Below, in pieces: positions 13,724 to 25,151 of a DNA stretch of 25,151 nucleotides. Source of the DNA: Pseudomonadota bacterium. GTDB taxonomy: Bacteria > CALINM01. Position 1 is the first letter of the stretch; each line of letters begins with the position of its first letter. The stretch spans positions 1-25,151 of the forward strand of contig JAOAGA010000014.1 of NCBI GenBank assembly GCA_026415985.1, given 5' to 3'. The notes below the pieces were generated by a model. It was not told the origin of the DNA. It saw nothing but the letters and a program-made list of their open reading frames with translations, and did not search any database. Position numbers and translations under genes: made by a program.

Positions 13724-14818
13724 CTATTGTGAAACTCTTACGGTAACAGTAAACTCAGAAAAGTCTTTAATTTTATAATTTGGGTTTTGGGCAATGCTAT
13801 TTGCCAAATACAAAGTGTTTTCCGGATATTCGACTATATACTCACCCATCTTAACTTCCTGCACTGATTTAACCCAAGCCAGGTTTTGAAGTGTTTCTTT
13901 TATTGCTAAGGTTTCTCCTAAGCTTTTTAAGTTCTCAAAAATAACTTTAACCTTTTTAGTAGATCCTTCTAAATACTTACCTAACACAGATATAATCTCC
14001 GGTGTTGCCTTTTTTGCTAATTCTGAAAGGGCCTGATTGCCTGCATCTTTTGCAGAGAAGGCTTTACCTTTAGCCTCCAATGAGCCTGCCTTAATTATCC
14101 TTTTGTCCTGTGCGGTTATTATTCTGTAATTTAATCTTGCTGTTACCTGATTAAAGGGCATCTTAAGTCCATACCCCACCTCTTCACCCTTTGCAGATGA
14201 GACATTCATATCAACTTTGCCAAGTATCAGTAGGTTGGAGAGGGCTTTTAACATTAAAGACCTTGCAAAGATTGTATCGTTATTCTTGATAGCCCTTTCT
14301 ACCTCACCTGCGGTTCCGGGATCTAAATTAGCAATATCCATAACAGTAAAATTTTGTTCCGCTATCTTTTCAATTAAGCCTTCTGTAAAGGTATTTGTCT
14401 CTTCTATCTTACCTTCGGGGAAAAAGGCGGGGATAAGTATCGCTACCGAACTAACCCTCAAAACATTCGAGATTGCCTTTTCAGCCTGTTCCCTTACCAC
14501 CTTTGCCGATATTCTAACCCTGTAAACATCACCATCTCTACCTTCCTGAAGGACTTTATAACTTTCTACATAACCACTGACTGATTTTTGTATCATCTCG
14601 TCAACAAGTGCAAAGTTCTGGACTACACTTTGAGCTTTTACCTTAACGCCTAATACCGCCTCTGCTGCGTTCCACTTAGCTCTCAGAATAGCTTCATTTC
14701 TTGCCTGAGAGAGATCATTATTAACTATGACAGACTCGCCAACCGCTTCTACAAACTGCTGAGAAAAAACATTAGAAGCAAGAAGAAGTAAAAAAATCAT
14801 GGTGAAAAACTTTTTCAT
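13724..14818 (-). CDS. Exported FlgT-N-domain-like protein
   Basis: This 364-residue protein has a cleavable signal peptide (hydrophobic 4-15, likely cut after VFSQ). Residues about 21-110 resemble the FlgT N-terminal domain: a VEAVGESVIVNND strand, the ARNEAILRAKWNAAEAVLG helix, SGYVESYKVL and VYRVRISAKV. FlgT forms part of the outer-membrane H ring of sodium-driven Vibrio flagella. The middle (about 120-285) has alternating strands and helices like a TolB/CsgG-type module. The C-terminal 70 residues form a compact alpha/beta segment I do not recognise. It is the last gene of the cluster, 17 bases after the OmpA-domain gene, and a strong terminator follows. No flagellar genes are nearby, so flagellar function is unproven. 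Confidence 0.65.
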   Translation of the reverse strand: MKKFFTMIFLLLLASNVFSQQFVEAVGESVIVNNDLSQARNEAILRAKWNAAEAVLGVKVKAQSVVQNFALVDEMIQKSVSGYVESYKVLQEGRDGDVYRVRISAKVVREQAEKAISNVLRVSSVAILIPAFFPEGKIEETNTFTEGLIEKIAEQNFTVMDIANLDPGTAGEVERAIKNNDTIFARSLMLKALSNLLILGKVDMNVSSAKGEEVGYGLKMPFNQVTARLNYRIITAQDKRIIKAGSLEAKGKAFSAKDAGNQALSELAKKATPEIISVLGKYLEGSTKKVKVIFENLKSLGETLAIKETLQNLAWVKSVQEVKMGEYIVEYPENTLYLANSIAQNPNYKIKDFSEFTVTVRVSQ

Positions 14819-14835
14819 ATTTAAATCCTCGTTTA

Positions 14836-16053
14836 TTATTTATCCTGTTTATTCATATCGGTTTCCAAAGGTATCAAAATTATCTCTATTCTTCTGTTTT
14901 TTGCCCTACCTTCTTCAGTATCGTTTGATGCCACCGGTTTATATTGGGCATAACCTACCGCACTTAAATATTTAGGGTCTATGCCACCTTTCTCAATTAG
15001 ATATCTAACTACCGTAGTAGCCCGGGCGGTTGATAACTCCCAGTTAGTTGGGAATTTTAATGCTATTTTTGCACCAATTGGTCTGTTATCGGTATGTCCT
15101 TCTATTCTTATCTGTTTGTCCTTTACTTTTTTAAGAATTTCTGCAACTCTGTCTATGACCTTTTTACCGCTTCCTTTAATCTCTGCACTGCCCGAGTCAA
15201 AAAGTATTTTTTCAACCAACTGAAGGGTCAGTTTATCTCTTAACTGGGTTACCTCTATCTCCCCTTTTTTAATCTCGCCACTCAGCTCCGTAACAAGATT
15301 ATCATAGGTCTTTTTTAGCTCTGCAATTGCCTTTTCCTTTTCCTCCAAAACTTTAGCCCTGTCAGTAGAGAGCTCTCTAACTTCCTTTTTAAGCTCGTTT
15401 ATAGCTAACTCTTTTTCTGATAACTCTTTTTTTAATGTTCTTGTTTCATCTTCTCTTTGCTGAAGATTTTTCACTAACTCACTCTTTTCCTTTTCTTTAT
15501 CAGCAATTTTCTGCTCTAAATCGGCAATGACTTCTTTTTTCTTTTTCTCTTCATTTTTTAACAGCTCAATCTGATTATTCTTTAAAGCAATTTCATCCTG
15601 AAGAGTATTTATCTTGGTATCTTTTTCTTTCAACTGGGTCTTAAGCTCCAAAGACTCCTTTGTAAGCTCTTCTTTACTTAATGACAGGCTTTTCTTCAGA
15701 TCTCCGTATTCTTTAATTAGCTTATCGTGGTCTTCAATAAGCTTTTGTCTCTTCTTCTCCTCCTCGCTTTTCTCTTCTTTTAAGGCTTTTATATCATTTT
15801 TTTGCTGTTCTATCTTGTTTTTTAAAGAAACTATCTCATCATCTTTGTTTTTAATATCCCTTTCAAGCTGATCTTTTTCTGACTTTAACTTTGACAATTC
15901 TGACTCTTTACTTGTAAGCCTTTCCTCCAATTTACCTTTATCTCCCTTCAATGCTTCTATCTCTGCCAGCTTGGCCTTATACTCACCGGAAGAAACACAG
16001 GAAAACATAAAAACTGCCAAAAATAATAAAAAATTTTTTTTGATATTTTCCAT
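14836..16053 (-). CDS. Coiled-coil OmpA-domain envelope protein, probable lipoprotein
   Basis: The 405-residue protein starts with a signal sequence ending near Cys19 (MFSC), an imperfect but plausible lipobox. Residues about 22-270 are almost unbroken charged heptad sequence, a long coiled coil that could reach tens of nanometres. Residues 276-395 form an OmpA/MotB-type domain: ILFDSGSAEI, the motif GHTDN with Asp322, and NWELSTARA with Arg344; these two residues hold diaminopimelate in the family. It should tether the outer membrane to peptidoglycan across a wide gap. A GGAGAG site precedes the ATG. A strong hairpin terminator sits only about 20 bases before the start, so its expression may be reduced relative to the upstream genes. 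Confidence 0.85.
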   Translation of the reverse strand: MENIKKNFLLFLAVFMFSCVSSGEYKAKLAEIEALKGDKGKLEERLTSKESELSKLKSEKDQLERDIKNKDDEIVSLKNKIEQQKNDIKALKEEKSEEEKKRQKLIEDHDKLIKEYGDLKKSLSLSKEELTKESLELKTQLKEKDTKINTLQDEIALKNNQIELLKNEEKKKKEVIADLEQKIADKEKEKSELVKNLQQREDETRTLKKELSEKELAINELKKEVRELSTDRAKVLEEKEKAIAELKKTYDNLVTELSGEIKKGEIEVTQLRDKLTLQLVEKILFDSGSAEIKGSGKKVIDRVAEILKKVKDKQIRIEGHTDNRPIGAKIALKFPTNWELSTARATTVVRYLIEKGGIDPKYLSAVGYAQYKPVASNDTEEGRAKNRRIEIILIPLETDMNKQDK

Positions 16054-16072
16054 GGATAACTCTCCTGTTACT

Positions 16073-16116
16073 AAAAAATAAGGGGAATGTAGTATGAAAC
16101 CACTACATCCCCCTTA
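16073..16116 (-). terminator. Strong intrinsic terminator inside the envelope cluster
   Basis: On the minus strand AAGGGGGATGTAGT (16115-16102) pairs with ACTACATTCCCCTT (16093-16080) with one G-T pair, 14 pairs plus an outer A-T, around an 8-base loop. ATTTTTT follows. It lies 14 bases after the LPP20-like gene and just before the OmpA-domain gene, where there is no room for a full promoter downstream of it. Confidence 0.88.
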
Positions 16117-16130
16117 ATATGAAGAAAACT

Positions 16131-17126
16131 CTACCTTAAGACAAATACTACATTAGCAGACTGTAAAAAGCTTGTTTTCTGATTTGCAGAGAAGATTTTT
16201 CCTGCATCATCACCGGTCACTTCAGCGTCTGTGGACTTAACTACTCCCTTAGCTTTAACAATTAAAGGATTTTTAAGATTTCTTTCTGCCAATATTGCCT
16301 TTGCCTTACCTATATCATTAGTATAGTCTCCGCAACCCTTCTTGATAAGTATTTCCTGAGCTATCTTTGCGGGTTCATATACCGCCTCTCCCTTCTCGGT
16401 AACAATTCTGTTTATCAAGGCTGGTTTGAAAGAGTAATCGGTAACATCAATAATAAGACTATCATAGGGCTCTGCAGGAGGAACCATAGCAGGTGCATAC
16501 ATAGGCGCAGGTGGGATAGTAGGAAGAAGGGCGGGAATTAACTGTCCTGCAAGTCCTGCAGTACCAAACATATCAACTTTCAAATATACAATACCCAACT
16601 CACTCATAGGGTCATATTGTTCAGATACTATCTGTGCACCTTTAACAAGGGCTTCTACCTTTGTTTTAATAATATCGGAAGTTACTGCCGCATCTTTAAC
16701 AAGAGTTTCTCCATAGACATTTACACCCTGTAAAAACTCTGCCAAGTTTCTATAGGCAACTACCTGTGCAGCTCTTATTGCCATTATCCTTTTCTGTGCA
16801 GGAGAGAGTGGTCTATCTGCTGGTGCAGCACCTTCACCTTTAACAATAAAATTGCCATTAACAAAGGCCTGAGATGGCGATGCGGTTACAACGGGCATAG
16901 CGGGTTGCATAGGCTGAGCATAAGGCTGACCATACTGTGGCTGGCCATAGGGTTGCTGAGGATAGGGCATCGGTTGGGGTTGAGGCTGACCGTAGGGTTG
17001 TTGATATTGGGGCTGTGGATAAGGTTGACCATAGGGCTGTTGTGGATATGGCTGTCCATAATACTGTGCAAAAGATACTGTAATTATACTAAAAAGAAAA
17101 AATAGTGTTAAAAAGATTCTTTTCAT
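16131..17126 (-). CDS. LPP20-like exported protein with Pro/Gln/Tyr-rich N-terminus
   Basis: This 331-residue protein has a signal peptide cut after SFA (residue 20); there is no lipobox cysteine, unlike classical LPP20 lipoproteins. Residues 21-77 are low-complexity repeats of QPYGQP and QPYPQ type. Residues about 88-188 resemble the LPP20/FlgP domain: FIVKGEGAAP, the helix AQKRIMAIRAAQVVAYRNLAEFLQG, a strand VNVYGETLVKD, and a closing IVYLKVDMFG. A Pro-rich linker (202-220) leads to a second alpha/beta domain (222-331) of unknown type. Its ribosome-binding site uses the TAG stop of the preceding gene (TAGGAGG), so translation is coupled. FlgP builds an outer-membrane ring in Vibrio and a basal disk in Campylobacter; whether this protein assembles similarly is inference. 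Confidence 0.72.
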   Translation of the reverse strand: MKRIFLTLFFLFSIITVSFAQYYGQPYPQQPYGQPYPQPQYQQPYGQPQPQPMPYPQQPYGQPQYGQPYAQPMQPAMPVVTASPSQAFVNGNFIVKGEGAAPADRPLSPAQKRIMAIRAAQVVAYRNLAEFLQGVNVYGETLVKDAAVTSDIIKTKVEALVKGAQIVSEQYDPMSELGIVYLKVDMFGTAGLAGQLIPALLPTIPPAPMYAPAMVPPAEPYDSLIIDVTDYSFKPALINRIVTEKGEAVYEPAKIAQEILIKKGCGDYTNDIGKAKAILAERNLKNPLIVKAKGVVKSTDAEVTGDDAGKIFSANQKTSFLQSANVVFVLR

Positions 17127-17136
17127 TCCTGTCCTC

Positions 17137-18339
17137 CTAATAAATATTTACTCTTTGTTTTAACATTCTTATTGCAAGAAGTGCTTCAGCACCATCTATG
17201 GGATCATTTGGTCTAAACTCACCAGATAACTCAGGCTCCATAAGACCTCTTGTTACCGCATTCATTACCGAATTAAACCAGGGGGCACTCTTTGATACAT
17301 CGGGATAGGGTGATTTCTCCGTTCCGAAATAAGCGGTATAGAGTTTCTCGTCTCCGGTAATCTTAACAAGTATGTCTTCCAAAATAAATGCTAAATCTCT
17401 TCTTAGAACTGGCTCATCTATTTTAAAGAGGTATGCCTTAGTAGTCTGGTCAAAAATAGGCTCTAAACCCCTTACATTAAACTTCATAAGAGTTAAGACC
17501 TCATCTTTGTAAACATGATTTAAAACATCGGCGGGTGTAAACTCTGCCTTCATTGCGTCAAGCTGTGATTTAACGGGAATTCTGCCCGCTAAAATTTTAT
17601 CTAACTTCATCTCAGAGATTAATAATGCTGAAAGGGCACCTCTTGTAATCTTATCTTCCATAGCAAGCTTCTTCCCCATCTCTCCCAGACTCATACCTGC
17701 CACAGCGCGGGCAATCTTATCAACCCTTTTAAAACCTCTGTCCGCAGGTTCATTCCATTTTCCTTCCCTTTTTGCCTCAAGAACCTTTGTGTACATATCT
17801 CTTGCCTTATTAAACTCTCTCGCAGAAAGATAAGCTTCTCCCATAAAATAATGGATAGCCTCTTTACCCTGATAATAATCTAATTTTTGTTCATTTACAT
17901 CGGTTTTTACTCCATCTTTATAAAAGTCTTCAACCTTTTCCAACCAATCTTTACCTTTTATAAGGGTATATACTCTCATACCCGCTATGGCATACTCAAA
18001 CCTATCTTCTTTTGATGTAGCCTTATCTTCGGCCTTCTTCAAGTTTGCCAAAGCCCTCTCTGCCTGAACGCTTGCAAACTTAGGATCCTTTTCTGCAACT
18101 GCCTTATTGGCATATACAATAGCAAGCCCACCGTATGGATTAGAGATTTTATCGAACTCGCAGTATAAGGCTCTGTTAAACTTCTCCTCTGCAACATCAA
18201 TCTTTTTTGCCTCAAGGGCTTTCATCCCCTGTAAATAATGGGTTTTGGCATTATCCTCAATTCCGACACATCTTTTTTCAACCTTTGCACAGGCAAAGAC
18301 TAAAACCGACATCAGCAAGAACGTTATTATTTTTTTCAT
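17137..18339 (-). CDS. Lipoprotein with TPR-like helical repeats and C-terminal SLH-like segment
   Basis: The 400-residue protein has a signal sequence with lipobox VFAC (Cys17). Residues about 30-220 are helical repeats of tetratricopeptide type (AKTHYLQGMKALEAKKIDVA; IHYFMGEAYLSAREFNKARD). Residues about 225-340 are helical with possible degenerate SLH elements (KITRGALSALLISEM; LRRDLAFILEDIL). Residues 343-400 resemble an S-layer-homology repeat: YPDVSKSAPWFNSVMNAVTRGLMEP followed by GEFRPNDPIDGAEALLAI. SLH domains usually bind secondary polymers or peptidoglycan, suggesting a link from the outer-membrane anchor to the wall. An ideal AAAGGAGGT site precedes the ATG. It lies between the CsgG-domain and LPP20-like genes. 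The SLH call is by eye. Confidence 0.72.
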   Translation of the reverse strand: MKKIITFLLMSVLVFACAKVEKRCVGIEDNAKTHYLQGMKALEAKKIDVAEEKFNRALYCEFDKISNPYGGLAIVYANKAVAEKDPKFASVQAERALANLKKAEDKATSKEDRFEYAIAGMRVYTLIKGKDWLEKVEDFYKDGVKTDVNEQKLDYYQGKEAIHYFMGEAYLSAREFNKARDMYTKVLEAKREGKWNEPADRGFKRVDKIARAVAGMSLGEMGKKLAMEDKITRGALSALLISEMKLDKILAGRIPVKSQLDAMKAEFTPADVLNHVYKDEVLTLMKFNVRGLEPIFDQTTKAYLFKIDEPVLRRDLAFILEDILVKITGDEKLYTAYFGTEKSPYPDVSKSAPWFNSVMNAVTRGLMEPELSGEFRPNDPIDGAEALLAIRMLKQRVNIY

Positions 18340-18399
18340 AATAAAACCTCCTTTGTTATGACTCTGAGAAACCGCTATTTAAAAATAAGCTTTCATTGT

Positions 18400-19572
18400 T
18401 TACTTCAGGAACTCAGTTCCTTCTTTTAATTTCTGAAAGGCACCTTTCTCTAAGGCCTTTTCTACGAGCATGCCAAGTTTTAAATAATTTTTCGTCTTTT
18501 CATCGGTAACTGCCCAGGCACTGTTTTCTGTAACCTGATCTGTAACGATTAGTTCAGCAACCTTATATTTACTAAGCTTTTTCTCATTGGTAACAGGGTC
18601 TTCTATAACCTCAAAATTATAGGCATAGAACTTATCTCCCTGTTTAACCCCTTGAGAATGCCCTACATTAAGAAGTGCTGCCTTTTTCCCACCTCTTAAC
18701 TGCTGAATATAGGCTCTGAGCGGAAACATCTTAACAAGCTCAAACTGACTTCTCATTATTGCCTCTTTTAATGCCGCCTGAGCAAGGCCTAAGAAAAACT
18801 CCGGTCTTTTTTCAGCCTTGTTCCCATCAGCAGTTTCCACTGCTGTAAAAGATTTTGAAAACTCAACCTTGCCGGTCTCAACACTAACTATTTTTATTGT
18901 CGTATCTATATCTACTCTCCATCTGGGTGTTGCCTGTTGATTTTTCCCTGTATAGGCTGAAAGTAGTGCGGTTCCTAAAGCCCCACCTGTAGAAATACCA
19001 TACTCCATCTTTACATTATTAACGCTACCTGTTACGATATGTGTTAAGCCTGCCAGCTTACCTAATTTAACCATAGTGTTTTCATCTATCATGCCTGATG
19101 CCTGAAGTTTCTGCTCATCAAAGATTTTTGACAAAGAATCTCTTGAATATACCTTAACACCACCTAAACTAATCAAAACTTCTTCTGATACCTGTGCAGC
19201 AACACCACCTATCTTGGGAACAACTTCTGTCTGAGTAACCGCAAACTCTCCTTCTGTCTTTGATTTGCCAGCTTCAACATAGCCAACACCAACCGCACCG
19301 GGAGTTGCCACAATTCCCGCCGCACCGCCTTTAACATAGCTACTTGTTTTTTGAAAACTGCCAAAGGTTGAATAGGAAGGTCCAATCCCTGTTCTGTTCT
19401 CAAACTCTATTACACCTACATTCCAATCTTTACCGACATAAACATCTTTGGGTAACTTTTCTACCTTTTCTCTATCTTCAGGCATAACCTGAAGAGAATT
19501 CACATCAAGTGTTGGACCTGCACAACCTACAAGAACAAACAAAAAGAACAATAAAGATATATACCTCTTCAT
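18400..19572 (-). CDS. CsgG-family outer-membrane lipoprotein with FlgT-C-like tail
   Basis: The 390-residue protein has a lipobox LVGC (Cys17). Residues about 48-285 match the CsgG fold: VGVIEFENRTG, SEEVLISLGGVKVYSRDSLSKIFDEQ, a LGKLAGLTHIVTGSV motif and a DIDTTIKIVSVETGKVEFSK strand pair. CsgG forms the nonameric outer-membrane pore for curli subunits, and relatives such as LpoB and FlgT-M are non-pore. A Gly/Ala-rich stretch (81-100) falls where CsgG has its membrane-inserting hairpin. Residues about 286-372 (LNVGHSQGVKQGDKFYAY) resemble the C-terminal domain of FlgT. It is the first gene of the cluster, behind a good promoter. No curli subunit genes (csgA/B/E/F) are visible. Confidence 0.8.
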   Translation of the reverse strand: MKRYISLLFFLFVLVGCAGPTLDVNSLQVMPEDREKVEKLPKDVYVGKDWNVGVIEFENRTGIGPSYSTFGSFQKTSSYVKGGAAGIVATPGAVGVGYVEAGKSKTEGEFAVTQTEVVPKIGGVAAQVSEEVLISLGGVKVYSRDSLSKIFDEQKLQASGMIDENTMVKLGKLAGLTHIVTGSVNNVKMEYGISTGGALGTALLSAYTGKNQQATPRWRVDIDTTIKIVSVETGKVEFSKSFTAVETADGNKAEKRPEFFLGLAQAALKEAIMRSQFELVKMFPLRAYIQQLRGGKKAALLNVGHSQGVKQGDKFYAYNFEVIEDPVTNEKKLSKYKVAELIVTDQVTENSAWAVTDEKTKNYLKLGMLVEKALEKGAFQKLKEGTEFLK

Positions 19573-20288: not shown

Positions 20289-21320
20289 TTACCTTAACTT
20301 GCTTAACGGGGTTATCTCAACAGTCTTAGATATCTTAGGAAGTTTTTCTTTTAAAACTTTTATGGTCTCTTTGTGAGGATGTCCGATTGCTATGGCAAAA
20401 CCATTTTTGATAGCCATCTCTACTGCTTTATCTATCTGTTCTGCAATCTTAATCTCATCGATTTCATGGTCCAGAAAAATATCTCTTTTAAAACTTTTAA
20501 CACCTATCTCCTTTGCTATCTCGTATCCTTTGCTATCAGGAGATGTCCTGCTATCAAGATAAAAGAGCTTTTTTTTCTTGATCTCTGCCAGAAAAACCCT
20601 CATCTTCTCCTCACTTTCCGTAAATTTCGAACCCATGTGGTTATTTACACCTTTTATATCAGGCAGAGAGTTTATAAAATTCTGTGTTCTGTTAACTATT
20701 TCATCTGATGACATGGAGACTCTCAGAAGATTATCATCTTTACCATATTTATCCATATCCTTAGGCTCCATCGGTATATGAAGCATCAGGTCTTTTCCCT
20801 CTTTTTTACCAAGCTCTAAGAAATACATTGAATAGGGCAGATTAGGCAAGATAGAGTAGGTGAGCCCTTTAATACTGAAAAGTTCCTCACCTGATTCCTT
20901 TGAATTCCCTATATCATCTATTACTATTGCCAATTTCGGAAGTGAGGGTGATTTTTCTTTAGGTATTATAAACTTGACTGTGAAAGTCTCGTTATCCCTT
21001 TTAAACAGAATAAAATCATTTGTTTTAACAGCAACAATTCCTTTTTCCTTAGCAGTTTTTGAACTATTTATGATGTTTTCTATATCTCTGGTATCTGTCT
21101 CAATAAAAGTATCATTACCTTCCCTGACAACTCTGATTATTTGTTTTTCTTCCAACTCTTTCAATATATTATTCACAAGAAGGTTAAGAGAATCATCTTT
21201 TTTATAATCCTTTACCGGACCGACTTGAGGCTGATCTTTTTTAGACTTCTCGGAAACAAAATAAAAAACCCCTGCAATTACTATTGCAAGGGTTATTAAA
21301 GGTATCAATATTTTTTTCAT
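20289..21320 (-). CDS. Divergent polysaccharide deacetylase family protein (COG2861)
   Basis: The 343-residue protein is anchored by an N-terminal membrane helix (4-22), with the rest in the periplasm. A linker and a small N-terminal domain lead to the deacetylase-like barrel from about residue 128. Motifs are AIVIDDIG with Asp135-Asp136, HIPMEP (181-186), NNHMGS (226-231), DSRTS (256-260) and IGHPH (312-316). These are the metal-site and barrel motifs of the divergent polysaccharide deacetylase family. The true substrate of this family is uncertain; a cell-wall or envelope glycan is likely. It begins 2 bases after the S41 protease gene, an arrangement I recall as common in diderm genomes, often with an EnvC-like peptidase upstream, which is absent here. 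Confidence 0.9.
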   Translation of the reverse strand: MKKILIPLITLAIVIAGVFYFVSEKSKKDQPQVGPVKDYKKDDSLNLLVNNILKELEEKQIIRVVREGNDTFIETDTRDIENIINSSKTAKEKGIVAVKTNDFILFKRDNETFTVKFIIPKEKSPSLPKLAIVIDDIGNSKESGEELFSIKGLTYSILPNLPYSMYFLELGKKEGKDLMLHIPMEPKDMDKYGKDDNLLRVSMSSDEIVNRTQNFINSLPDIKGVNNHMGSKFTESEEKMRVFLAEIKKKKLFYLDSRTSPDSKGYEIAKEIGVKSFKRDIFLDHEIDEIKIAEQIDKAVEMAIKNGFAIAIGHPHKETIKVLKEKLPKISKTVEITPLSKLR

Positions 21321-21322
21321 TA

Positions 21323-22639
21323 CTATTTTCTGCTTTTAAAGATATCCCAGCTTTTAATAAGTTCCACTGCCTTCTTTACAAGTTCGTCTTCTTCCGGAGA
21401 TTTAGGTGCCTTGAACCCATGGGGATCTCTTTTCTTTTCTTTATCTTTATCTTTATCTTCCTTCTGAGTATCTTTAGCATCATCTTCATCTGTTCCAGCT
21501 AAATGCTTGGGTAGATCCTTTTCTTTTATCATATGAACCGTACCGTCTTTATACTCTATGTCTGGAGTAATACCCTTTGCCTGAATAAGTTTACCACTCG
21601 GGGTATAATATCTTGCAGTAGTCAATCTAAGGGATGAGCCATCTTCAAGCGGGAAAAGTGTCTGCACAGATGCCTTTCCAAAGGTTTGAGAACCCATAAT
21701 AACTGCAATTTTATGATCCTGCAATGCTCCTGCCACAATCTCGGAAGCACTGGCACTGCCACCATTAACAAGACAAATTATCGGATAATTCCCAACTGAT
21801 TTTTCCTTATTGGTTGCCATAAACTTGGCACCTTTACCTGCTCTGTCCTTTGTGTAAACAATAATACCATCTTTAACAAACTCATCGGCTAACTTCACTG
21901 CCTGATCAAGAAGTCCGCCGGGATTATTTCTTAGATCGAGGATCAATCCTTTGATCTCTGCCTTGCCTTTTAGGTCTTCGAGGGCTTTTCTAAAGTCATT
22001 TGTTGTTTGTTCCTGAAACTGAGTAACTCTTATATAGGCGAACTTATCTTCTAAAAGCTGATATTTGACCGTCCTTATCTTTATTATATCTCTTACAAGT
22101 GTAATCTCTTTAGGTTCTTTAAAACCTTCTCTCATTATGTGAATAGTAACAGATGTTTTAGGCTCCCCTCTCAAGAGCTTTACAGCATCCTGAACTGTCA
22201 TCCCTTTTGTAAATTTACCGTTAATCTTAACTATCTGATCGTTGGCAAGTATACCCGCCTTATATGCGGGTGTATCATCTATGGGAGCAACTACTGTTAA
22301 AATACCGTCTTTGACTGTTATCTCTATGCCTATCCCGCCAAACTGTCCTTTAGTCTCGACCTCCATCTCCTTAGTTGCCTCCGGCTCCATAAAACCGGAA
22401 TGGGCATCCAGATTTTCAAGCATGCCTTTTATGGCATTATATATTAATTTTTTCGAGGTGGCCTCTTCTGCTTCTACATAGTTAGATTTAACTATCTGAA
22501 AGGCCTGAGAAAAAATCTTGAAATATTTCAAATCTTCTTCGGGAAAGATATTTACCGCTCTATTAAAGGCATATACCCCATAACCAATAGAAATTGAAAT
22601 AACAACAACAATCGCAAAAATCTTAATACCTTTTTTCAC
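21323..22639 (-). CDS. ctpA: C-terminal processing peptidase (S41 family)
   Basis: This 438-residue periplasmic protease is held by an N-terminal helix (5-25). A PDZ domain occupies about 97-180 (GGIGIEI, PAYKAGILANDQIVKING). The protease core carries DLRNNPGG (235-242), the nucleophile Ser297 in GGSASASEI, and Lys322 with Gln326 in FGKASVQ, the exact spacing of the S41 Ser/Lys/Gln site. A strongly charged segment (384-404) precedes a helical C-terminus. Translation starts at GTG (22639) behind AGGAGG with an 8-base spacer. Family members trim C-termini of exported proteins and regulate peptidoglycan hydrolases. A TATAAT box lies 31 bases upstream and a terminator before that, so it opens a three-gene operon. 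Confidence 0.95.
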   Translation of the reverse strand: MKKGIKIFAIVVVISISIGYGVYAFNRAVNIFPEEDLKYFKIFSQAFQIVKSNYVEAEEATSKKLIYNAIKGMLENLDAHSGFMEPEATKEMEVETKGQFGGIGIEITVKDGILTVVAPIDDTPAYKAGILANDQIVKINGKFTKGMTVQDAVKLLRGEPKTSVTIHIMREGFKEPKEITLVRDIIKIRTVKYQLLEDKFAYIRVTQFQEQTTNDFRKALEDLKGKAEIKGLILDLRNNPGGLLDQAVKLADEFVKDGIIVYTKDRAGKGAKFMATNKEKSVGNYPIICLVNGGSASASEIVAGALQDHKIAVIMGSQTFGKASVQTLFPLEDGSSLRLTTARYYTPSGKLIQAKGITPDIEYKDGTVHMIKEKDLPKHLAGTDEDDAKDTQKEDKDKDKEKKRDPHGFKAPKSPEEDELVKKAVELIKSWDIFKSRK

Positions 22640-22820: not shown

Positions 22821-23174
22821 TTACTTGCGTTTTTTCTGTTGTTGCTCTGGTGCAGATTGTTGAGGCGGTTGAACTGGTTGAGGTGGATTATAGGCATTTT
22901 GAGCCTCTAAAGTTATGTTCTTTTTAGTAGCTGTTTCTACTATACTACCGGAAATTATATACTTAGCCTTTTTATCAACATAAAAAACAATATGTTGTTT
23001 GTCTAATTTAATAACCACTTCGTAAACTCCCGGAATCTCTTTCAGCTCTTTTAAACTTGCTATCTCAAACTCTATGGGTAGTATCTGTTTAATAGACTCT
23101 TTTACCTTATCCTTTGAAGGTCCTCCGCATCCGATTAACAACAATGCAATCAGAAATAAAACGACTTTTCTCAT
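22821..23174 (-). CDS. Small lipoprotein resembling a lone DsbC/DsbG N-terminal domain
   Basis: The 117-residue protein has a clear lipobox LIGC (Cys16). Residues about 22-90 look like the cystatin-like dimerisation domain of DsbC-type disulfide isomerases: a helix KESIKQILP, the strand IASLKELKEIPGVYEVVIKL, FYVDKKAKYIISG, and a closing TATKKNIT, which parallels the usual 'knLT' end. No thioredoxin domain or CxxC follows. Instead the protein ends in a Pro/Gln-rich tail and a basic KKRK. It sits 42 bases after the large repeat protein and before a terminator, so these two genes probably form an operon. It may bind or dimerise with an exported partner; no catalytic activity is expected. Confidence 0.6.
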   Translation of the reverse strand: MRKVVLFLIALLLIGCGGPSKDKVKESIKQILPIEFEIASLKELKEIPGVYEVVIKLDKQHIVFYVDKKAKYIISGSIVETATKKNITLEAQNAYNPPQPVQPPQQSAPEQQQKKRK

Positions 23175-23216: not shown

Positions 23217-25151
23217 CTAAAGTTTATTGCACCATTTTCTGCTCATAAAAATTGCTAAACCTACTATCAAAAACCCGATTCCTAATTTATCTGCATACTT
23301 AATCCCATAGACAACAGGCGTAAGCATAATCCTTGTCATGGTTCTCAAGACCTCATGTCTACTTATAAAATCAGCGATAGGTGGTGAGTTTCTGTAATAG
23401 AACTCAACAAAGGCCCTACCAGCAGAGTTTGTCAACAAAAACTTATCCCTAAACTCTCTGAGTACCATAACATTTGGATCTAAATAACTACCGTATGCTG
23501 CAGTAGCGATAAAACAGGCACTCTTTGAAGGTTGAACATTAACTGTGGTTCCGGTTGTTGTCCCTGTCCCACCACCTGTTGTCCCTGTCCCGCCACCTGT
23601 ACCTGTTCCGGCCTCTGTCCCATTTAATATACCCCTTCCCGTAAGATTAATAGTGTATGGAGAAAGGCCTTCCTTAAAAGATATTGTTACGGAAGATGTG
23701 TAAACTGTGCTTGCCACCGGGGAAAACCTGATCATAAAGTATAAATCTTCTCCCGGTTTAATAATTTGTGGAGTAAAAGTTGGGATTATAGTGCCTCCTC
23801 CTTGTGTGGCACTTGGTGAACTGCCAAATACCACCTCAAAGGGCGTTGTCGGTCCATCTCTGTTTACTATCTCAAGATCAAAAGTACCTGTGTTTGTTAT
23901 TTTGTATACTTTTGTAGCTGTGCTCCCTACTCTTACACCACTGAAATTTTCAAAGGCAGAGGCGGTTATAATATATTGATAGGGGTTACCATAAGAAGTT
24001 GCCTGCAAGTTAACCGTCTGAGCACCGTTCAAGGCGTCGGAATAAATTTTAAAATTGGCATTATAATTACCCTGCGTAGTTGAGCTGAAATTTACAAATA
24101 TATACTTTGAGGTATTAGGCATTATCTGAATCTTATTAGAAGAAGATGCGGGTTTGCCAACATAATCAATGCTAAACTTATTCCCTGGCTCTGTAATGCT
24201 TGAGATATTTAAAAAGGCATTACCAGTATTTGCTACAGTAATAACCTTGGTAATCTTTTTACCTGCCTGAATATTGCCAAAATCTATAGAAGGAGGAGTT
24301 AACAAGATATAAGGACCTGTTGCAGTGCCTTCTTCAACACCTGTTCCGGTAAATGTAATCTGTGCAGGGTTTAACGGTTCGTGTTCATAGAGGATTTTAA
24401 AGGAAGAAGTAAATGTCCCTTTCTGACTTGGGTTAAACCTTGCCTGTAAAACCAATGTTGAACCAGAGGGTAAGACATAGGGTGTTGATGGAGCATTTAA
24501 AACAGTAAAGGGACCAGTAGGATTATCAAAATTAAGAATCTTAACATCTATCTGACCGGTATTTTGAATTATAAAGCTTTTTGTCTCTGTTGAGTTGACA
24601 CCTATGGAGCTGAACGTAACTGACTGTGAGGCACCGGGTGCGGGAGATACATTAGGATTAGCAGAAATACCCTGCAACTGTATAGAAGGAGTCCCGTTTA
24701 CTGCATCGGAATATACTTTCAGACTATTAGAGAAGGAACCCGAAGTAGTGGGGTTAAACTTTATTGTTATGTTATAGGAACTGCCGGGGAGTAATGCTAC
24801 AGGAAAAGAGGGGGCAAAGACAAAGCTGAAGGCTCCGGAGGGACTGTCAATTCCGGTTACCGTTAATATTGAGTTACCCGTATTTTTAATTGATAGAGCC
24901 ATGGTTTTTGTAGACCCTGTTGCTATGGTTCCAAAATCAAGAGATGACGGATCAGGGATTAATGTTATTTTTGGTGCAGTACCAACACCTTTAAGATTAA
25001 TCGTGGAATTGCCACCATCTGTGGTTATGCTAAGAGTGCCAATATGATTAACATTGTCCTGCGGAGAAAATCTAAGGACTATGTCTTTATAATTTCCTTT
25101 TGTAATTGGAGCCGATACTGAACTGTATATACTAAACCCGTTACCATTGAG
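23217..25151 (-). CDS. Large surface protein with ASH/Hydin-type Ig-like repeats and CFI-box C-terminal domain (5' end cut)
   Basis: The frame is open from the window edge to the TAG at 23217, giving 644 visible residues; a Met at 24902 lies inside a repeat and is not the start. At least four full and one partial domain of about 95-115 residues recur, each with a DFGxIxxGxxxTxxxxxxNTG strand pair and a later RFxPxxxGxF motif, as in ASPM/SPD-2/Hydin ('choice-of-anchor') domains. A Gly/Thr linker (about 513-538) leads to [10 protein letters not shown] at about 546, the CFI-box C-terminal domain. A hydrophobic helix (about 621-637) and RKWCNKL complete the likely sorting and anchoring tail. The protein is probably exported and displayed on the surface. 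No binding partner can be named. Confidence 0.85.
23556..23597. repeat. Two tandem 21-base units in the Gly/Thr linker
   Basis: TGTTGTCCCTGTCCCACCACC occurs at 23556-23576 and again at 23577-23597 with one A-to-G change. Each unit encodes seven linker residues (Gly/Thr), so changes in copy number would keep the reading frame and alter linker length only. Confidence 0.85.

Follow-up and report, generated by a model that had tools for sequence, protein, structure and literature searches.

How flagellar motors acquired their extra rings is still an open question. Among the ring proteins, FlgP, found in the basal disk of Campylobacter and the H ring of Vibrio, has an LPP20/SHS2-type domain with a ring-interface insert between the SHS2 helix and the second strand. 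According to a 2025 study of the Campylobacter jejuni motor, FlgP stems from a broad family, its insert builds the ring, and ring formation correlates with the insert across the family (PMC12222027). FlgT, which belongs with FlgO to the Vibrio H ring, combines its N, middle, and C domains in a single chain. Treponema pallidum Tp0624 (PDB 5jir) has the domain order D1 (SHS2-like), D2, and a fused OmpA-like D3, and its D1–D2 part was noted to recur as a unit whose function is unknown (PMC5104382). Here, we analyzed a window of 25,151 nucleotides (the whole stretch of contig JAOAGA010000014.1, assembly GCA_026415985.1, from a Pseudomonadota bacterium) that encodes relatives of these proteins. We found that four of its genes, P1 (FlgT_N), P3 (LPP20), P4 (TPR-SLH), and P5 (CsgG/FlgT_C), form a conserved set that is independent of flagella. 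In our judgment, the chances are even that their products P1-P5-P4-P3 make up a ring-type scaffold in the periplasm, placed at the outer membrane and bound to the wall via P4. The building blocks are known families; no description of the set was found in the open-access literature searched (LPP20, SLH, FlgT, and CsgG combined; FlgP outside flagella; Geobacter LPP20; LipL46/FlgT).

A first-pass annotation of the window had proposed a five-gene envelope cluster whose products all carry export signals. All five open reading frames proved to be intact, each with a Shine-Dalgarno-like stretch on its 5' side, and the cluster is laid out as follows, in the direction of transcription:

18400..19572, minus strand: P5, a predicted outer-membrane lipoprotein with a CsgG/TolB-N-like domain and a FlgT_C/TsaP-like C-terminal domain
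17137..18339, minus strand: P4, a lipoprotein with a TPR-like N-terminal part and an SLH C-terminal part; the anchor gene of the conserved set
16131..17126, minus strand: P3, an exported protein with an LPP20/FlgP-type ring domain (about residues 92-200), then a Tp0624 D2-like domain (218-331)
16079..16116, minus strand: an intrinsic terminator-like hairpin of 16 pairs with a T run, 3' of P3
14836..16053, minus strand: P2, a coiled-coil lipoprotein with an OmpA peptidoglycan-binding domain; linked to the others in the window only
13724..14818, minus strand: P1, an exported FlgT_N-type protein

N-terminal export signals were recognized in all five products, with lipoboxes in P5 (LVGC), P4 (VFAC), and P2 (MFSC); P3 and P1 have plain signal peptides that resemble those of signal-peptidase-I substrates and lack a lipobox. 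The families named at first held up in part in Pfam searches, where CsgG, SLH, and OmpA exceeded their cut-offs and LPP20, FlgT_N, and FlgT_C fell below them, but these sub-threshold assignments of P3, P1, and P5 were upheld by family-level evidence.

Conservation of the cluster in relatives was a test set beforehand. We searched 290 sampled genomes with a P4 profile and counted full-length matches only, excluding many TPR or SLH fragments. Full-length relatives of P4 occurred in 30 genomes from 20 families, and a scan with a stretch conserved among closer P4 proteins found them in more than 60 named contigs; five distant P4 proteins had no stretch sufficiently conserved for this. Neighborhoods of these carriers and of 65 named contigs were annotated with family hidden Markov models, which gave 51 countable loci with flanks no shorter than 5 kb and 4 kb (L028 and L162, and likewise L076 and L135, represent the same genome twice). 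Beside P4, a P3-type gene was present in 46 of the 51 loci, a P1-type gene within reach in 30, and a P5-type gene in 21, and all three were present in 19; an unbiased clustering of neighbors ranked the same families (P3, P1, and P5) highest. Across the sampled genomes, a P3-type protein (threshold 1e-25) was found in 28, and 22 of these also had a full-length P4, compared with 3 expected (Fisher p about 3e-21, a test that takes the genomes as independent although they are not). Given the spread over 20 families, the P3/P4 co-occurrence is robust. Named hosts belong to Nitrospirota (Thermodesulfovibrionales and Magnetobacteriaceae), Geobacteraceae, Desulfuromonadaceae, and Syntrophorhabdaceae, together with a metagenome-assembled genome of Nitrospinota, and cultivated ones include Trichlorobacter thiogenes and Geotalea toluenoxydans.

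P2 falls outside the conserved set, so that four of the five genes of the proposed cluster remain. When all loci were searched with P2 as the query, no other P4 gene had an OmpA-domain protein nearby, and a strong terminator-like hairpin (16116-16079; 16 pairs followed by T6, −26.2 kcal/mol, z −6.7) stands between P3 and P2; the suggestion that a long OmpA coiled coil belongs to the assembly is therefore not sustained. Because of this hairpin, P5-P4-P3 and P2-P1 are probably two transcription units, barring read-through. The OmpA domain of P2 itself is clear (Pfam 6.8e-22, plus a coiled coil), and the residues of the TD..N..LS..RA motif of OmpA/Pal peptidoglycan binders are present (TDNRPIGAKIALKFPTNWELSTARA at residue 321), with longer spacing than in the classical motif. 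One hint ties P2 to the others: in Tp0624, two domains like those of P3 are joined in one chain with an OmpA-like domain (PMC5104382). In the window, however, P3 ends after D2, and the OmpA protein is encoded by a separate gene that is absent at other loci.

The set is not an accompaniment of flagella, a point on which the first-pass annotation had made its claim of novelty depend. FliG_C was detected in 126-130 of the 290 genomes, and FliG in 12 of the 30 carriers of P4 compared with 13 expected (p = 0.85; the match in G243 is weak), leaving 18 carriers without it. Full-length FlhA matches were obtained in 11 carriers, the rod/hook family was not found in 11 carriers of 96-100% completeness, and complete non-flagellated genomes are among the carriers of the set. 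In the closed genome of a flagellated carrier, G263, the set lies at 0.97 Mb and the flagellar genes at 1.35-1.40 Mb, about 380 kb apart. The window's own draft genome yielded no FliG, FlhA, or rod/hook match; since this draft is 84% complete and its family mate G001 possesses flagellar genes, absence of flagella from the organism is likely but not certain. Omp85 was present in all but one of the 33 genomes searched for it, which links the set to an outer membrane. The earlier idea of a dedicated envelope assembly drawn from flagellar outer-ring families is thus supported by its conservation in relatives and by the lack of a tie to flagella.

P3 is related to the ring protein FlgP. The window protein matched Pfam LPP20 below the cut-off (5e-4; 20.8 bits against 25.9), and its family profile matched FlgP of C. 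jejuni (PDB 9hmf, 2.5e-15) and of the Vibrio type (PDB 8z5n, 5.7e-11). With C. jejuni FlgP, 84 columns aligned gap-free, spanning the ring-forming beta-hairpin insert, which occupies the same position in P3; an LPP20 ring, as suggested at first, is thereby supported as a FlgP-type ring. In the AlphaFold2 model (mean predicted local distance difference test score [pLDDT] 76.6, predicted template modeling score [pTM] 0.42), the elements follow the expected order: strand 92-100, helix 109-131, strands 140-144 and 147-152, strands 165-172 and 177-185, and helix 192-200. P3 also shares the D1–D2 order of Tp0624 (Foldseek 2.4e-7), and its residues 218-331 superpose on D2 (Z 13.6, root-mean-square deviation 2.3 Å over 110 residues, 22% identity). 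P3 thus differs from FlgP in having this additional C-terminal domain and in lacking a lipobox and a flagellar link. Weak matches of P3 to viral histone-like proteins in the PDB (E 0.02) were treated as chance. A Pfam LPP20 search of the window's own genome returned no match, not even the window P3, and is thus no evidence of absence. At L093 (5896-7953) and L094 (11389-13959), far larger proteins with P3-type domains adjoin an ordinary P3 gene.

P1 matched FlgT_N slightly below the cut-off (2.6e-6; 28.3 bits against 28.8), and FlgT_N was found in 27 of 30 members of its family. It shares 38-45% identity with most of its cluster relatives, whose genes are mostly placed ahead of P5-P4-P3 or after P4. 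Its N-terminal domain has the insert-bearing stretch in common with P3 (28% across 57 columns, with an hhalign probability of 91.5%); outside this domain, weak FlgO/CsgG-like signals were seen in some family members. Along most of its length, P1 also weakly matched Leptospira LipL46 (6e-8), at 31.8 bits, far under the equivalog cut-off of 400 bits.

P5 matched CsgG above the Pfam cut-off (2.2e-8) and FlgT_C below it (1.6e-5; 25.7 bits against 27). The best fold match of its AlphaFold2 model (pLDDT 73.3, pTM 0.66) was to the middle and C domains of FlgT (PDB 3w1e; Foldseek 4.8e-14), so that the domains held by one protein in FlgT are here divided between P1 (FlgT_N) and P5 (middle and C fold), the latter a lipoprotein and non-flagellar. 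Further matches were to the CsgG pre-pore, PelC (a dodecamer, Z 13.6), LpoB, and TolB, a group that has its fold in common with the N-terminal domain of P5; to this, P5 adds the C-terminal FlgT_C/TsaP-like domain, with which the P5 family profile matched type IV pilus chains of the TsaP type (3jc8, 6ve2). In contrast to TsaP, P5 has no LysM domain, and contact with the wall would be made via P4. A contig scan with P5 alone as the query found no relative. Taken together, the evidence leans toward P5 being a FlgT/PelC-like ring part rather than a pore.

P4 matched SLH (6.5e-11) and, weakly, TPR. SLH wall-anchored proteins have three SLH repeats and bind a wall polymer; in P4, one repeat exceeded the cut-off, and residues 225-320 resemble further degenerate repeats by eye. 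The window protein was not firmly placed in the P4 tree.

From these relationships, we infer ring formation, the contacts and position of the parts, wall binding by the SLH part, and a function as a tether or collar. P3 would oligomerize via its FlgP-type beta-hairpin insert, and P1, with a related FlgT_N domain and the same insert, would stack on or join the P3 ring. The lipoprotein P5 may fasten this ring to the outer membrane through its FlgT middle and C/PelC-like domains. P4, a lipoprotein whose gene nearly always adjoins P3, would tie the ring to the cell wall by its SLH part, and its TPR part could serve as a protein-binding surface. The scaffold might fix the outer membrane to the wall, encircle another trans-envelope machine as a collar, or both.

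Several observations weigh against a four-part ring scaffold. Neither fold nor homology demonstrates assembly, and proteins that form no ring, LpoB among them, can also carry TolB-N/CsgG-type domains. The hairpin strands of P3 (140-152) have low pLDDT in the monomer model, and P3 is unlike flagellar FlgP in having no lipobox. In addition, P1 and P5 are absent next to P4-P3 in 15 of the 51 loci, with many Geobacteraceae among the named ones (this family often has P4-P3 only), so P3-P4 alone may be the minimal unit. Finally, P3-P5 were not found in G002, a 92% complete genome of the window's family.

A broader reading takes the set as a trans-envelope ring machine in a class of its own, widespread in diderms, from which the Vibrio- and Campylobacter-type flagellar rings (FlgO, FlgP, FlgT) were derived; we put this forward as a speculative and rather unlikely extension. 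Here, the FlgP-type insert is encoded in an operon that is conserved and non-flagellar and that also holds FlgT- and FlgO-type partners. An FlgO-domain gene follows P3 in four loci (L162, L111, L137, and L155), which places relatives of FlgO, FlgP, and FlgT side by side or nearly so. The cultivated hosts make the question of ring origin testable at the bench, and the orphan D1–D2 unit of Tp0624 gains a genomic context.

Other explanations account for parts of these data. The set could be a complex for outer-membrane and wall homeostasis, in which P5 would be an LpoB/PelC-like regulator or export ring part and the rest wall sensors or tethers. The likeness of P5 to LpoB and PelC fits this reading, as do less frequent neighbors of the loci: a transglutaminase-core gene (28 loci), FecR (22), MlaE/D/F-like genes (11-12; here and for Crp below, names come from reading the sequences, with no profile match), and a CHASE2 cyclase (8). 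However, such neighbors are not universal, some lie on the opposite strand, and the recurrent neighbors included no recognized penicillin-binding protein or polysaccharide synthase; we consider this explanation improbable, if not strongly so. Alternatively, the set could be a type IV pilus accessory that surrounds the pilus secretin as a TsaP-like ring, which would suit the C-terminal domain of P5. Strong full-length PilM matches occurred in about two thirds of the carriers, but PilM is unspecific as a pilus marker, with matches in many control genomes. Two carriers (98-99% complete) had no PilM match, several more had weak partial matches like those in control genomes without such pili, and the neighbor clustering returned no pilus gene as a recurrent neighbor, making a pilus accessory a little more doubtful still.

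The first-pass annotation had also considered a secretion channel; as a CsgG-type pore, it would have P3 and P1 as its periplasmic adaptor. P5 does share with the curli channel the CsgG domain and a lipid anchor, but CsgG has two transmembrane beta-hairpins per subunit, and the alignment of the P5 family with CsgG extends to residue 191 of 277, short of the second; the monomer model of P5 cannot display the pore form. The closest folds are FlgT, PelC, and CsgG in its pre-pore form, no curlin-type family was present among the scanned and annotated neighbors, and of all members of the set, P5 shows the least conservation and is most often absent, which together make a channel decidedly improbable. 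That the genes are relics of, or misplaced from, a flagellar H ring, as their FlgT/FlgP/FlgO-type domains and the flagellar genes of G001 might suggest, was rejected by the FliG co-occurrence test and is hardly credible, given the intact conservation of the set in many non-flagellated genomes, its distance from flagellar genes in G263, and the presence of P4 and a Tp0624-like domain, both lacking in flagellar H rings.

Several further features adjoin the cluster in relatives. An exported transglutaminase-core protein is encoded near the cluster, as a rule downstream of the P3 gene and on its strand (L159 12274-14034 and 27 more loci). Upstream of the cluster in L028 (11170-17378) are genes for a FecR-type protein, a CHASE2 cyclase, and a Crp-like regulator, a possible envelope-sensing circuit. 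A second set, consisting of an FlgT_N-type gene followed by genes for two proteins, one TPR-CsgG and one CsgG-like (Fn3 domains are present in one case), adjoins the cluster at these positions:

L106, 15594-21168
L116, 9251-14687
L117, 3789-9159
L118, 4364-9833
L137, 12876-18308
L141, 3895-9327

In the window itself, a 191-aa protein with no Pfam match is encoded immediately upstream of P5 (19707-20282). Farther upstream, on the same strand, a divergent polysaccharide deacetylase adjoins a CtpA-type S41 protease (20289-22639). These are accompanied by a small lipoprotein that corresponds to the N-terminal domain of DsbC without the thioredoxin domain (22821-23174) and by a protein with HYDIN/ASH-type Ig repeats, whose C-terminal tail ends in a hydrophobic stretch (23217-24902).

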